This document shows positions 14,038 through 21,990 of a stretch of DNA of 64,000 nucleotides, in pieces; positions within the stretch are counted from its first letter, which is position 1; each line of letters begins with the position of its first letter. The notes beneath the pieces were generated by a model. That model was not told the DNA's origin. It searched no databases and worked only from the letters and a program-made list of their open reading frames with translations. The stretch covers positions 52,313 to 116,312 of the forward strand of contig FMBT01000148.1 of the NCBI GenBank assembly GCA_900095095.1. Reading direction: 5' to 3'. The translations under genes were made by a program, and so were the position numbers. The DNA is from Fragilariopsis cylindrus CCMP1102. Lineage: Eukaryota > Bacillariophyta > Bacillariophyceae > Bacillariales > Bacillariaceae.

Positions 14038-15573
14038 ATGGTCCAAGATCCGAGAGTCACGACGTTGTTAGGTCGGTTAGGTGGTTTGTATCGAGATCCA
14101 GCACGAGTGGATCGAGATACCTCTAGTTTATTAAAAAGTTCAGTGGGTACACATTTAACACCAGGAATATCACCACTTGTTGAAAATAATGGCGATTCCT
14201 CCCATTGTTTAGTATTACAGGGCACGATCGCGATAGTCTTTCGTGGTATGACCTACCAATTATTAGTGGATATATATTTACCACCCGGATATCCAATCCG
14301 ACCACCTGTATCATTTGTACGACTGGCAGAAAATATGGTACGTTTTTTTATGTAATGATATTATTATTATGACTATTATTATTGTGTTCGTGTTTGTGAT
14401 TGTGTTTGTGTTTGTGTTACTGCTATTACTGATGTTACTGATGTTACTGCTCCGCTCGTCAATCGCAACTCAATTACTCATCTCTCTCTTCTCTGTCTCT
14501 CTCTATTTCTATTCCTGTCAATAATAAAATATCATCTCTATAAACTTTCTTCCTGGATGGATGGGATGAATACTGTACTGTACTTTACTATAATACAATA
14601 CAATACAATACAATATCCACAGTATCTGAAAGAAAGTCATCCTCACGTTGGAAGTGATGGGATGGTGTATATGCCATATACACATGAATGGAATCCACGT
14701 ACACATTCCTTAATTGAAATGGTCGTGGCAATGAGTAGTGTCTTTTCAGCTGATCCACCCGTGTTTACTCGAGCAGCTCCAGCTCCCGCTCCTCCGCCGT
14801 TGGAGACACCACCACCACCACCACCCGCATATTCGAGTTATGTATCATCCACTTCTAACAATAATAATAATAATAATGATTCCGAACGGTACATGCAAGA
14901 ACAAATTGCTGCTATAATGGCAAAAGAGATAGAAGAAGCAAATTCGGCTGCAGAAATTGCACGTAAAGCTGATATGGAGGAACTGGATCGGAAAGAACAG
15001 ATAGAAGCACAACGACAATGGGAAACAAAAAAATGTGAACAAATTAGAATTGATGTCAATAAAAAAATACGATGTTATTTACAAAATTTTACAGAAGAAA
15101 CAAGAAGTACCTTGTCGGCGGATTGGAGAGATTCCGAACAATTAACACAAACAAAGAAACAAATTGAGCAAGAGATACAAGATTTAACTAATAAAAAAAT
15201 AAAATTGAATCGGCACATTACTACAATGGACAATAAAACGACAGAAATTGAAAACTGGTTAGAGGAAAGTAATAAGAATGATGATACTACAAATAATTTG
15301 AAGCAGGAAATTAATGTGGATGATATCTGTCAACCTGTTAATAAATTGAATACACAACTGTTAGAGTTGAGTGCCGAAAGTGCTGCCTTAACGGATGTGA
15401 TGTACTTTTTAGATCGTGGTATGTATATGAATCAAATTGATTGTACGACACATCTGAAAATGATACGTAAGCTTGCCAAAAGACAATTTCTGATTCGAGC
15501 ACATTTGATTAAAATTAATCAATATACTGTTAGTCAACAGCAGCAACAACAACAACAACAGCAAGTAAATTAA
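14038..15573 (+). CDS. TSG101: ESCRT-I subunit TSG101 / Vps23
   Basis: Recognises ubiquitinated cargo on endosomes and hands it on in the ESCRT pathway. Exon 1 (14038-14337) and exon 2 (14623-15573) are joined over a 285-base intron with GTACGT donor and CCACAG acceptor, phase 0, giving 416 residues. Residues 1-155 are the UEV domain: GTIAIVFRGMTYQLLVDIYL, then PPGYPIRPPVSFVR, and after the splice SHPHVGSDGMVYMPYTHEW. A Pro-rich linker follows (PPPLETPPPPPPAYS), then a coiled coil (QIAAIMAKEIEEAN to KKIRCYLQNF and onward) and a C-terminal steadiness-box-like region (VMYFLDRGMYMNQIDCTTHL, KMIRKLAKRQF). A poly-Gln tail comes from a CAA/CAG run. Length and domain order match animal and yeast members. 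The intron contains a GTGTTTGTGATT-type microsatellite. No frameshift. Confidence 0.93.
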
Positions 15574-16381
15574 ATAATATAAGATTAAATTATTAATACC
15601 ACCAATGTGCTGCAAATTGCTTCCCTTTTTTGTGACTCTTTTTATTCGATAACCTACATGATGATGATTACAACAGGGGTCGTCACCACTACTCGATCGG
15701 ATTATAAACAGCATTTACATCTAAGTTCCTTCGATGCTGAGCCTAACTATTTTTCATTACTGAATTTATTCCTTAGTAGCTCTTCCAAACATGCATTGCA
15801 GAGTTTTGAATCCTGTTCTGTATTATGTTTCCCAGATTTTCATTGCTCAATGTGGCTGGAATTTTCCGAATTTTTTTCTATTTTTGATAGAAGATTGATT
15901 GTTCTTGTGCCTCTATCTGTTGATCTTTCTGAAGCTGGCTAACAATTGAATATGCTCATAAAGAAAAAAAATAGAGGCTAGAATGGATATCTTTTTGTGA
16001 TAGTAAAAAAGAAACAATGACAATAAAGAGATTTTAAAAAACTTATATTCATTCGTGATTGATTTTGGGATTGAAATTATTTGGGCGGTCATTTTACACA
16101 TTTCCTTGAGTCACATTTCACATTTCTGATCCCGAATCGAATCCCGAAATATTTTAATAAACTTAATGAACAATGAACATCATAAAAATGAAGTTGATGC
16201 TTTTGCTTTCGGATTGGTGTGATCGTATTCTGCCGTGACGATTGGTGTGTTATATTTGATTTTGAGTGTTTACAGCATTGTATTTCAGCGTTACTGTCGC
16301 CTCCGATGTTCACCCGGTGATCAGTGAATCGAACAAGAATTGAATCAAATCGAATCGAATCGAATCGAATCGGAATACAGT
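15574..16381. other. Intergenic, no supported gene
   Basis: A plus-strand open frame at 15607-15942 has no leader, domain or plausible partner and is probably chance. A short GAATC repeat lies near 16340-16370, just before the next start codon. Confidence 0.55.
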
Positions 16382-19300
16382 ATGTTCCAAAGAAATCTTC
16401 ATTCCAAGAAAAAAGCGCTGGAGTCATCCTCGTCATCGATTCTATCCTCCGACATCGTCGATAATATTGAGAAAGACAAGAACGCAAATCGATTCAATAC
16501 GAAGTTGACGAGAATAATAAATCTCCATCGAAGGTTGCTGCTAAGATTATTTTGTCTTCTGTCCTTTACTTTGGTAACATTAAATCTATGGTATCAGCCT
16601 CAGCCCAGCCCCAAGACGAATACCATGATGCAACATATTATATCAGTGCCAACTCTACGGATAACGTCATCATTTCAACGCAACAGCAACGAACGAAGCA
16701 ACAAAATTTCATCATACAACATGGTTTGAATCAGAATCCAATCGCAAACCATGCATGTGACGGATATAGAGGGATATACCATATTGAAAAGGGTGACATC
16801 GGTGGGGCGGCTGGAACTGTTTTCTTTCAATTTGTTATCGGTCAAATTATATGGGCGGAGAAATATAATTTCAAACCTTGGGTGTACCTTAATAACGTTA
16901 GTCACATCGTTTATGATCCTATAGTTCACGGAAATAATACCGGTGTGAACTTTACGATGCAAAAGGGTACGGAAATTTCATACATTCAACGGCCGATGGG
17001 ACATAGAAGAGATGCGTATCCAGGACAAACCGTTGTGAATAATCCTGACAATTTGCGATCTTTTCATTATAATTTTGATGGAAATGGGGTTTGGGATAAT
17101 TACTTTGAACCTATATCTGATTTTATTCCCGGTGATAAATCGTGTCAAGATAAACCCCTAGTTACTATGGACTTATACCAAGTAACACCAGGCGTTCATG
17201 GATTTTCTGGTGCACCAAAATGTTGGAGGTACGAATATCTTCCAGATTATATAACAAAGCCACATATACCCCTGAATGACTGGTTGGCACCTCAACGTCA
17301 ATCTGCCCACGATGTATTGAAAAGATATATCCGATTTAAGCCTCATATTAAAGCCAAAGCAGAATATGTTAATCCTTCCTGTTCCATCGAGACTAATAAT
17401 GCATGTCTTGGGATTCATATTCGACATTCTGATAAGGCCGCTGGTCGACGAATACTTGATACGGATGAATTTTTACCGTACGTGAAAGCCTTTTTAGATG
17501 CTGGAGGGAAATGGATATACCTTGCGACAGATTCGGAGAAAGTTGTTGAACACATCAAAACTACATGGCCAGAGAATGTTCTAAAAGTTATTCGATCAAT
17601 GGGAGATGACGTGGTTCGTTCAAATGACGAACAGGCTGTATTTGATATTGGTTCCCATCATCGTACCAATACAGAAATTTTAGTTGAGATCCAAGCTTTA
17701 TCATATTGTCAATTTATGATTCATGGACTTAGCGCAGTAACTGAATCCAGTATATGGATCAATATTGATTTGCATTACACATCCGTAAATTTAGAAGATC
17801 CTGATCATTCCAACGAAAATGAATTTGGGGATCTGGTGGGAAAGGTACTGACTGGTGGGAATGCTAGTCAAATTTTGGAGAAAAGAAATTCCATCAATAA
17901 TAATAATATTAATAATTGGTGGATGCCTAAATCATACGAAGTGCAATTTTCAACGACCACTCTAAATCAAAACCAAAATCAACTGCCGCATACTCAAGCA
18001 TGTGATGACTCTACGAGTGGCATTCTTCATATATCGCACGTTGGTACGAATGCAGGTACCGGAGTAGCCTTCTTCACATCTGTTTTGAACCAACTCTTGT
18101 ACGCAAAGAAAAATAATCTTACGCCATGGATTCACTTGAGTAACGAATCGAAATTGATCTACGATGATGAAATCCACGGGGCAGCATCAGGGGGAGTCTC
18201 GGTGATTGAAGACATTCAAGATGTATTGATGATTACCATGTTGGAGAATGACAACATCAACAGCTCATTGTTATACCCTGGTCCTGTGGTCGTTGAAAGT
18301 AGTAGACAGAAAAAAATATCACACTTCGTGGAAATGGCATCTGGACAAGCTATTTCCGTGGTGTCTCAGACTTTGTTCCAGAGAGTAAATCTTGTTCTGA
18401 CAAGCCAGTTCTTTCCATGGATGAAGTATGGTTTCTGCTATGAACTCGTGGAGTCCTTGGTCAAGCAAGGCCTGGCAGTATGACGATATTCCGAATGAAT
18501 TCTGGAATCCGAAGGGTTTGACTTTGAAATCGTGGCTTGAACCAATGAGGATAAAAGCCAATGATATTGTCAAAAGATATTACAAATTCCAGCCTTTTAT
18601 TGTTGAACGAGCTCAACAAGTGAACCCTTTCAATTCAACACCTTGTCTTGCTGTACATTTACTCAATACCGACAAGGAAGGAATACATCGGGAAAAATTT
18701 CCCCCCAACAAGTTTCGGGAATACTTCGACGCATTTGCTCGTGCCGGAGGTAAGCATATTTATATTGCCTCCGATTCAAGTCGTCCATTAGAATACATTA
18801 TGGAGCATTTCCCATCTAATATACAAAAAATGATTCGGACTCAGGGTCCGTATGTTGTGCGGTCATCCTGGAAATGGCCTCCTCATATGCTTGAGAATCA
18901 TCATCGTACCAACTCTGAAGCTCTCGTTGATATATTGGCGATGTCGAAATGCCAACTTCTATTGCACGGTAATAGTGCAATATCTGAGGCTACAATATAC
19001 TTGAATTTAAATCTTCACAACAATAGTGTCAATATGGAAGATCCTGATAGGTTGAGTGTTAAAGAATTTGAAGCCTTGGCTCGACGAGTAGTAGAAATTC
19101 CAAGTGATGAGGCAACAACTGTCAATGCAACGAAACTTCAACAAAGGTCTACTACAAAAATGAATGCTACAAAGGGTAATCTCCCTCCTCCTCCTGAGAA
19201 TAATAACGTAGGAATTATTAAGGGGAATCATGATCGGAAATGTAGAAGAAATGCTATCGTTTATCTAGCACAGAAAAAACACTCTAGTTATGAAAGGGAT

Positions 19301-20439
19301 AGTTATGGAAATTTACTAAAATCATTGGAATTAATGAATCAAATTATCTTTCTGTTCACAACCATCAGAATAATACAGATGTAATAATATTCCATACTGA
19401 TGATTTCAATCAAGACGATATGGATATAATGGAAACTAAATTCGGTTCATCTTTTCGAGAAGGACTTTATTTTATCAATCTACAAAATACATCATACTGG
19501 CAACGTCCAGTTGGCACCGTAACGACAATCCTTCTGCTGATTGGTATGCATATCCACTTTTCTCAGAAGGATACCGACAAATGATGCATTGGTATGCCAT
19601 CGATATATGGCGTTTTTTCAAAGATTACGGAAGGAACAACAATTGTTCGTATGAATATATAATGCGTTTTGATGAAGATTCTTTTCTAAGATCAAAATTA
19701 GATTATGATATATTTGATTATATGAAAAAGAATGACTATATTATGGTTTTCGTCTTTGTTCGTATGAGATGCAAGTAACACAACGGATATGGACAATTTG
19801 GACTAAAATGACATCGAAGAAAGGATCACAAGTACCACCGATACGTGATATTGATTTGAATATGTGTGGTATATACAATAATTTTTTCGTTACAAAATTA
19901 TCCTTTTTTCAAGATGACAAAGTACAACGTTTTTTGAAATTAGTTGATCGACAAGGAATGATATACCGGAGACGATTAGGTGATTTAATGATCCATTCTA
20001 TGGCGGTATATGCATTCTCACCATCTGAAAAGATACATCGATTTTTGGACTTTACATACGAGCATAGTACAATTAATACAACAACTGGTTGTGTTATTTG
20101 GGGTGGTATCCAAGCTGGATATAATGATCCAAATTCAAATAAAACATTAGATAAGTTTTATCAAGAAAAGTATTAGATCATAATTGTGCAACAACAACAT
20201 CAGCAATAAGAAGTCCTCATAATCCGCCACCACTGGCAGTCATCGATACATCTTACTTGATCCAAGATGATTTAAGTCCAACTTATCAACATCATCTTCC
20301 ATCAGAATATGCTTCTACTACTACTACTACTACTACTACTTTGAATAAAAATGAAAATGGGTATGGTAAGAAATTGAAACTAAAAACGATCATGGCTGGT
20401 AAAGTTGAATATCCTGGTCAAGGATTGTTAAGTGGTTAG
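16382..20439 (+). CDS. Giant Golgi-type glycosyltransferase: two fucosyltransferase-like domains plus a GT15 mannosyltransferase-like domain; about six frameshifts
   Basis: ATG 16382 gives a type II anchor (LLLRLFCLLSFTLVTLNLWY). Domain 1 (about 16760-17830) has GDIGGAAGTVFFQFVIG, then CLGIHIRHSDKAAGRR, KWIYLATDSEKVVEHI and HHRTNTEILVEIQALSYCQF; this is the GT23/NodZ-like layout in which HxRRxDK binds GDP-fucose. Domain 2 (18000-19050) repeats it (THVGTNAGTGVAFF-like start, HHRTNSEALVDILAMSKCQL) but reads HLLNTDKEG where the Arg residues should be. Domain 3 (19240-20160) is GT15/KRE2-like: RNAIVYLAQKKHSS, EGYRQMMHWYAIDIW, YEYIMRFDEDSF, DIFDYMKKNDYIYGF, RRRLGDLMIHSMAVYAF. Frames change near 16620, 18440, 19341, 19520, 19755 and 20165; five of six fit one missing base. 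Stops at 18483 and 19384 lie past the point where the next frame is already open. Expected in the Golgi. The tail after 20176 is less certain. Domain families inferred from motifs only. Confidence 0.75.
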
Positions 20440-20666: not shown

Positions 20667-21689
20667 TCATTGTGATTGTAATATATCCCATAATTCATCA
20701 TCTGATTCAAATAATGATTCTATTCCAGGTCGATTTAAATATGGATAATCACCAACAAAGCATTCAGCATCAGGGACATATATATCTGACATTGCACTTA
20801 AAGATTCAAATGTATCAGATGTACTTAATAATATACCAGCAATTGGCATACCAATTTCTATATTCAAATATTCTTCCTTAAGTCGTGAATGGATTTGTAA
20901 TTCACGATTTTCATCATCATTTATCTTTATACGTATCAAATATGGTATACCTGTTATTTCTTCTAATACATCACGATCATTTTTATAATCTTGAAATTCA
21001 TTTAAATTATACTCTTCAATTGATGAATTATCTTCAACAACACATACGTCATCAATCCGTCCTAACAATATTGATCCATATAAACCAGCATTATCACGTT
21101 CTTCTCTACGATTATCATTACTCCGAAAATTATTAAAGAAATTGTCATCATTCTCATTATCATCAAACATCCATGGATCAACTAATTGTCTTCCACCTAA
21201 TAATTCCCAATTCCTTTGTCTTGCTTTAAAGTCTGGTGATAGTATAGCCCAAAATGCAAATAATGAACCAACTACTGTTGCCAAAAAACTACCAACCACA
21301 AATGATAGAAAATAGGAAAAAAATATACCAATAAAACCAATAATTGATGATTCTAATAATCTATTATATGTTTCACGTTTTGTTTGACCCCAATACGTTG
21401 CGTATTGTAATCCACTTGGACTACCAACAACTAATAATTCGTTTATATCATCTACTGGTAATGGTACTAATGCCATATTTAGACGTGTAGTCGTAGTATA
21501 CATACTAGGTTCTTGCTGTTGTTGTTGTCGTCGTTGTTGTCGTTTTCGTTGTTGTTTTTGCAGCTGAAATTTTTGCTGTCGTCGTCGTTGTTTAGGTGCT
21601 AATATCATTGATGATGATAATGATGATGATGATGATAGTGACGTCGTCCAAGCTGCTGCTATTTGTGCTGTTATTACCAACATTATCAT
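20667..21689 (-). CDS. Predicted plastid membrane protein of unknown function
   Basis: A single 340-residue frame. The start MIMLVITAQIAAAW looks like a short signal peptide ending A-A-A before Trp, an aromatic residue of the kind found at the +1 site of stramenopile plastid leaders; a Gln/Arg-rich transit-like stretch encoded by CAG/CGA repeats follows (residues 25-60). The mature part has YWGQTKRETYNRLLESSIIG, two membrane helices (IGFIGIFFSYFLSFVVG and FLATVVGSLFAFWAI), then SPDFKARQRNWELLG, a Gly-Ser core (AGLYGSILLGRIDDVCVV) and an acidic C-terminal domain with many Glu/Asp. I believe similar proteins exist in other photosynthetic eukaryotes, but I cannot name a family with certainty. 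It converges on the glycosyltransferase gene. No frameshift seen. The plastid location is inferred from the leader. Confidence 0.65.
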   Translation of the reverse strand: MIMLVITAQIAAAWTTSLSSSSSLSSSMILAPKQRRRQQKFQLQKQQRKRQQRRQQQQQEPSMYTTTTRLNMALVPLPVDDINELLVVGSPSGLQYATYWGQTKRETYNRLLESSIIGFIGIFFSYFLSFVVGSFLATVVGSLFAFWAILSPDFKARQRNWELLGGRQLVDPWMFDDNENDDNFFNNFRSNDNRREERDNAGLYGSILLGRIDDVCVVEDNSSIEEYNLNEFQDYKNDRDVLEEITGIPYLIRIKINDDENRELQIHSRLKEEYLNIEIGMPIAGILLSTSDTFESLSAMSDIYVPDAECFVGDYPYLNRPGIESLFESDDELWDILQSQ

Positions 21690-21990
21690 AACATAATAAT
21701 AACAATAAAAAGCAATATTGTTTCTTTTCTTCTTCTTCTTCTTCTTCCCCTATACAAGCACAGGCTGTATGAACAACCGATGATGGCTTCATCTTGCTTC
21801 TTTTACTGTTTGTACCCTACTTTATTGATTACTTCGTTAGAAAATAATGTGTGATTATGTGAAGTGCGAAAGTGTGTAGATTTATTATTTATTCTACTAA
21901 TTTTACGACAACGAGATGATAAAAAATCTATCGTACATAAATTACTTATAGCCAAAATCCAATTAAATAGTAACAGATTCATTAGAATAA

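Follow-up and report, generated by a model that had tools for sequence, protein, structure and literature searches.

Two FUT8-like domains followed by a GT15 core: a candidate Golgi fusion protein in the diatom Fragilariopsis cylindrus

Layout of the locus

We have analyzed a stretch of 64,000 nucleotides from the diatom Fragilariopsis cylindrus, referred to here as the window (contig C574:52313-116312 of a 67.9-Mb assembly of 818 contigs); all positions given below are in the numbering of the window. A preliminary description of this DNA had placed three glycosyltransferase-type domains within one reading unit. These domains are found there, and their identification as two domains resembling the fucosyltransferase FUT8 of glycosyltransferase family 23 (GT23), termed D1 and D2, followed by a GT15 core, termed D3, is partly confirmed by sequence comparison.

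The first domain and the first half of the second lie in a single open reading frame (ORF) of 670 amino acids (16471-18483), and an ORF of 319 amino acids (18425-19384) takes in the bulk of the remaining half of D2 and the linker towards D3. The GT15 core is carried by two frames, 19440-19778 and 19736-20176. Every motif that had been singled out, namely HHRTNTE, HHRTNSE, the ATDS/ASDS pair, GYRQMMHWYAIDIW and RRRLGDLMIHSMAVYAF, sits in the coding frame (Table 1). A type II anchor had also been proposed, and a compatible hydrophobic segment of 19 residues (16535-16591, mean hydropathy 1.86) is present that is a possible type II Golgi anchor. The N-terminus is uncertain, because codon scoring prefers another frame from about 16480.

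Table 1. Features of the candidate fusion gene, in window numbering
Feature	Position	Strand	Basis
N-terminal segment, from first ATG of frame 16328-16729	16382-16600	+	Basic tail and hydrophobic segment; ORF list, hydropathy
D1, first GT23/FUT8-like domain	16744-17889	+	Uninterrupted ORF 16471-18483; profile alignment to FUT8
D1 motifs	HIRHSDK 17416-17436; YLATDS 17518-17535; HHRTNTE 17656-17676	+	Coding frame
D1-D2 linker	17890-17997	+	Same open frame as D1 and first half of D2 (ORF 16471-18483)
D2, second GT23/FUT8-like domain	17998-19090	+	Alignments; breaks near 18.31 and 18.42 kb inside
D2 motifs	HLLNTDK 18656-18676 (Leu at FUT8 Arg365); YIASDS 18761-18778; HHRTNSE 18899-18919	+	
D2-D3 linker	19091-19228	+	In D2 frame: window ORF 18425-19384; second-copy 347-aa ORF L005:4375-5418
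Presumed GT15 N-terminal part	19229-19510	+	Position only; single open frame in second copy
D3, GT15 (KRE2/MNT1) catalytic core	19563-20065	+	Two frames meeting near 19.74 kb; PF01793, Kre2 collinearity
Possible C-terminal tail, further frame	20155-20439	+	Weak codon score to about 20439; gene end uncertain

The whole window (1-64000) recurs elsewhere in the assembly, at C608:221000-300200 (L033-L040), in collinear order. The six alignments of at least 1500 columns between the two show 98.3-99.5% identity and contain 242 mismatches; gap events number 272, of which 213 involve a single base. C608 is probably the other haplotype or a duplicated contig, rich in insertion and deletion errors.

Assignment of the domains

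D1 and D2 are true repeats, as had been described, with the two pieces of D2 sharing 34% and 38% identity with D1. A single-domain paralog of 583 amino acids is 40-41% identical to D1, and the three belong to one family. The paralog is found in two near-identical copies (L008, at C711:55152-56231 on the minus strand, and L009, on C760), with the 583 amino acids open in both. Its N-terminus carries a hydrophobic stretch of 19 residues that scores 2.26, and no family exceeded the cut-off in a Pfam scan of it.

A profile built from four pieces of this family (A2) was compared with the PDB. The top 7 of the 16 matches are alpha-1,6-fucosyltransferases, with E values of 0.017-0.023. When A2 was aligned with FUT8 by hhalign, using a 144-residue piece identical to PDB chains, the score was 47.6, with a probability of 91 over 100 columns and 27% identity; none of 100 shuffles exceeded 20.0, and the reversed piece gave 13.9. 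The aligned blocks comprise the donor-site HxRxxDK motif and YLATD, and continue to the conserved serine. These comparisons point to a remote link of D1 and D2 to GT23.

The assignment of D3 is made directly from the GT15 profile. A match to this profile had been expected across 19240-20160, and it is present: the frame 19736-20173 scores 50.0 bits with PF01793 (E = 3.6e-13, cut-off 25) over profile positions 253-324 of 325, and both assembly copies exceed the cut-off. The preceding frame, 19440-19775, reaches 14.4 bits, below the cut-off, over profile positions 152-210. The two frames are collinear with yeast Kre2 residues 217-273 and 271-388, and 0 of 500 shuffles reached either score. The PDB relatives of the 19736-20173 frame are yeast Kre2p and two Ktr4 proteins (E values of 7.7e-10 to 1.5e-7), of which 1s4n, Kre2p, is the best (E = 7.7e-10). 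The KRE2/MNT1-like region of the preliminary description stands for its core, while its presumed N-terminal part (19229-19510) aligns with Kre2 no better than shuffled sequence. We regard D3 as a divergent GT15 domain by sequence. Further GT15 genes were sought in a six-frame search of the genome in which the best candidates were scored; at E values up to 0.001, PF01793 matched nothing beyond this locus and its counterpart on C608.

A number of results weigh against these assignments. With the Pfam model FUT8_N_cat D1 scores 15.0 bits, under the cut-off of 27.6, and because of this D1 and D2 are termed GT23-like rather than members of GT23. D1 alone retrieved no FUT8 chain from the PDB, only two unrelated matches (best E = 0.69), and the ORF of the second copy that runs from D2 into the linker retrieved only unrelated chains (E of 0.23 or worse). 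In the search with A2, eight chains of the unrelated HydE follow closely behind FUT8 (E = 0.042-0.049). For D3, positions 1-151 of PF01793 are unmatched at the locus, 245 of 500 shuffles equal the score of 19229-19510 against Kre2, and in the PDB the 19440-19775 frame by itself matches Ktr4 (E = 0.097) less well than it does an unrelated formyltransferase (0.024).

Other searches were negative. The larger D2 ORF matched no Pfam family at E up to 1, and an NCBIfam scan gave nothing over its cut-off. The FUT8 Pfam model found no match in the genome, which says little because the 14 control genomes gave none either. No relatives were found in scans of viral contigs and prokaryote genomes, collections that contain no diatom proteomes. 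The O-fucosyltransferase family GT65/GT68 (PF10250) was considered and rejected; its 14 matches in the genome include none on C574 or C608, and it was absent from the Pfam scans of the pieces.

Continuity between the domains

Reading passes from D1 into D2 without a stop inside the 16471-18483 ORF, and from D2 through the linker it is stop-free to 19384. In the second copy the frame of D2 and the linker (L005:4375-5418, 347 amino acids) is open to the equivalent of about 19584. At the stop frequency of the window (0.0535), a given frame would stay open over 17800-18010 with a probability of 0.021, and over 19060-19240 with one of 0.037. Codon usage was scored in segments of 90 bases after training on other loci of the same genome (19 ORFs, 28.4 kb). 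From about 16360 to 20439 the best score falls in most segments on a stop-free frame. It is positive at 19.36-19.5 kb, and weak near 18.4, 19.2-19.3, 19.7 and 20.15 kb, mostly where segments straddle breaks.

The same stretch could be read as two neighbors, with a tandem GT23-like gene containing D1 and D2 followed by a separate GT15 gene. The D2 frame has a methionine at 19160 from which GT15 could start separately, and the proven GT15 core begins beyond a break near 19.50 kb, present in both copies, that divides it from the D2-linked frame; both observations speak against a single gene. Yet the D2 frame is stop-free through the linker in both copies, and the core has no ATG ahead of it in its own frame. 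Moreover, a GT15 protein starting at 19160 would have no clear anchor, since its best hydrophobic segment scores 1.23 and spans the break near 19.34 kb. We consider the division into two genes to be improbable.

Origin of the frame breaks

Seven frame breaks are counted in the window, where six shift points had been claimed. Those near 16.5-16.6, 18.31, 19.50, 19.74 and 20.15 kb are common to both copies, a point against their origin in assembly, while two are peculiar to the window (18.42 and 19.34 kb) and a further two to C608 (18.24 and 18.55 kb). Introns were considered for the breaks near 18.31 and 19.74 kb and rejected, as homology runs on both sides there with no added length.

Between the two copies of the gene there are five gaps that shift the frame, one that does not, and a single mismatch. 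In the window 18 further ORFs reach 230 amino acids or more; this sample, biased by having been chosen as open in the window, contains 35 mismatches, 21 frameshifting gaps and 3 in-frame gaps in 22,420 aligned bases. In neutral decay, substitutions normally far outnumber insertions and deletions. Assembly error is therefore favored, as five frameshifting gaps accompany a single mismatch where decay would have favored substitutions. The earlier attribution of the frame changes to assembly errors is thus supported by the ratio of gaps to mismatches, and is opposed by the five breaks that the copies share.

Matches that abut or overlap in different frames were also observed in silicon transporter genes (C600, C639 and C77) and in HSP70 genes (C693 and C70). 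We take these as a sign of frameshift errors throughout the assembly. Silicon transporters account for 27 matches at 12 places in the genome (best E = 1.1e-226), which mark it as that of a diatom.

The breaks could alternatively be real mutations carried by both haplotypes, in which case the locus would be the decaying pseudogene of a former fusion. This would be in keeping with the shared breaks, with a slight excess of frameshifting gaps between the copies of this gene (5 in 4.06 kb, against 21 in 22.4 kb for the 18 other ORFs), and with alteration of each of D1, D2 and D3 at positions that are important in their relatives. It accords poorly with the scarcity of mismatches between the copies, with the four places (18.24, 18.42, 18.55 and 19.34 kb) at which one copy is open and the other broken, and with the codon bias that is retained over most of the gene. 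On balance we think decay unlikely.

Active-site residues

In FUT8 the residues Arg365, Lys369 and Glu373 are each essential, in that their individual substitution by alanine gives a fully inactive enzyme, and Glu373, which lies in a mobile loop, is the proposed base, according to the portion of the structural study used here (PMC7033129). In our alignment D1 keeps His363, Arg365, Asp368 and Lys369, and D2 keeps His363, Asp368, Lys369 and Asp453. The paralog retains His363 and Asp368 and all three of Arg365, Lys369 and Glu373, the glutamate being aligned with a gap of one residue, and it is possibly the better candidate for a fucosyltransferase.

Other positions tell against a functional enzyme. 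D1 has glycine at position 373, so that the catalytic glutamate is absent in the alignment, and glutamate in place of Asp453. D2 has leucine for Arg365, identically in both assembly copies, and histidine at 373. At the place of Ser469 there is alanine in D1, D2 and the paralog, with a serine one position earlier. The loss at 373 in D1 is less sure than that of Arg365 in D2, because the loop is mobile and the alignment there is gapped. Judged by these residues, D2 would more probably be inactive.

D3 keeps Tyr220, Arg245, Asp249, Asn327, Arg358, Asp361 and His388 of Kre2, and makes a conservative change of Glu247 to aspartate (FDED for VEPD). His323 is replaced by glycine. A further point against activity is the phenylalanine at Glu329, a position that is glutamate in three solved relatives and whose proposed role is that of nucleophile. 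Glu329 is not counted as defining GT15, because double displacement is argued against in the part of PMC11077754 drawn on here. The Kre2 numbering was anchored on Tyr220 as named in that source and on matching spacing, and the metal, donor and catalytic roles were taken from the equivalent residues of the Candida enzyme described there (PMC11077754).

These changes raise the possibility of an expressed fusion that is mostly non-catalytic and serves as a pseudo-enzyme for glycan binding or as a scaffold, an explanation that overlaps with the one we prefer below. It would account for D2 lacking two, and D1 one, of the three FUT8 residues that the paralog has in full, and for the replacement of Glu329 and His323 in the GT15 core. 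It sits less well with the four donor-site residues retained in D1 and with the seven kept in D3 beside the aspartate for Glu247, and the alignment around the FUT8 base is in any case unsure because of the mobile loop (PMC7033129). We view a largely non-catalytic role as rather unlikely.

A model for the encoded protein

The explanation that we favor, with a probability of about 0.6, is a gene of approximately 4 kb encoding a probable Golgi type II protein in which tandem GT23/FUT8-like domains are fused to GT15, most of its breaks being assembly errors. The domains would form one chain located in the Golgi. With its HxRxxDK motif intact, D1 would bind GDP-fucose, the donor binding and fold being predicted from motifs. 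It might then either transfer fucose using a base other than the counterpart of Glu373, or bind the acceptor. D2 would be a degenerate and probably inactive copy. D3 would add alpha-mannose from GDP-mannose to a mannose-containing protein or wall glycan.

The preliminary description had gone further, in suggesting an enzyme for both fucose and mannose. The GT15 core and the donor-site motifs of D1 agree with this, and the absence of Arg365 from D2, of Glu373 from D1 and D2, and of the glutamate replaced by phenylalanine in D3 do not. Because all three domains are altered at key residues, such an enzyme is put forward here conditionally. It appears doubtful that one Golgi protein unites a GT23-type fucosyltransferase and a GT15 mannosyltransferase, both of them functional, with D2 binding substrate, and makes a glycan of fucose and mannose for the wall or for secretion.

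Neighboring genes

Upstream of the candidate fusion gene lies a Vps23/TSG101-like gene (ORF 14359-15570, with PF09454 and a UEV domain). Downstream, on the minus strand, there is an ORF of 360 amino acids (20670-21749) whose 3' end faces that of the candidate gene and for which no Pfam match was found at E up to 0.001.

Relation to known systems and significance

The resemblance of D1 and D2 to FUT8 lies in the alignment of the donor-site HxRxxDK motif, YLATD and the following region of histidine, arginine and serine. They differ from it in being tandem copies fused to GT15, and in the missing Glu373 and, in D2, Arg365. Pfam scans of the diatom pieces brought up no SH3 domain. D3 resembles KRE2/MNT1 and KTR4 (GT15, PF01793) in its collinearity with Kre2 217-388 and in keeping the catalytic tyrosine and most metal and donor positions; it differs in standing at the C-terminus of a fusion and in the changes at 247, 323 and 329.

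Two unlike glycosyltransferase domains occur together in the Golgi type II proteins EXT1/2 and LARGE, each of which makes a mixed glycan, although their domains belong to other families than those considered here. We know of no combination of GT23 with GT15, and found no report of such a fusion in the open-licence literature on diatom glycosyltransferases, fucans and N-glycans.

The GT23 proteins of brown algae are proposed to be fucan synthases in which the donor site is conserved and an SH3 domain is absent (PMC11468063, in the portion drawn on here). The diatom domains are like them, by description only, in being of a distant stramenopile GT23 type, and differ from the model discussed there, which has 458 amino acids and keeps the donor residues (PMC11468063). 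The same portion of that 2024 survey records no GT23 in the diatom genomes screened; it also notes that fucose-rich polymers have been reported from diatoms, with a chemical structure that has not been worked out (PMC11468063). The family of D1 and D2 may have fallen below the detection of that survey, or perhaps only some diatoms have it. According to a 2025 review, genes for core alpha-1,6-fucosyltransferase (GT23) have been predicted in several phyla of microalgae; diatoms are not named in the part used here (PMC12507850). A two-column table in a cryptomonad genome paper gives 5 and 5 for GT15 and 16 and 16 for GT23, with no mention of a fusion in the portion cited (PMC6260743).

Together with its intact paralog, the gene suggests that one diatom at least has a divergent family of GT23-like proteins, in which a pair of copies is joined to a mannosyltransferase. 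Confirmation would provide concrete genes for knock-out and assay. If the protein does make a glycan of fucose and mannose, it would offer a first genetic handle on the fucan-type polymers of diatoms, a lineage in which one survey found no GT23.

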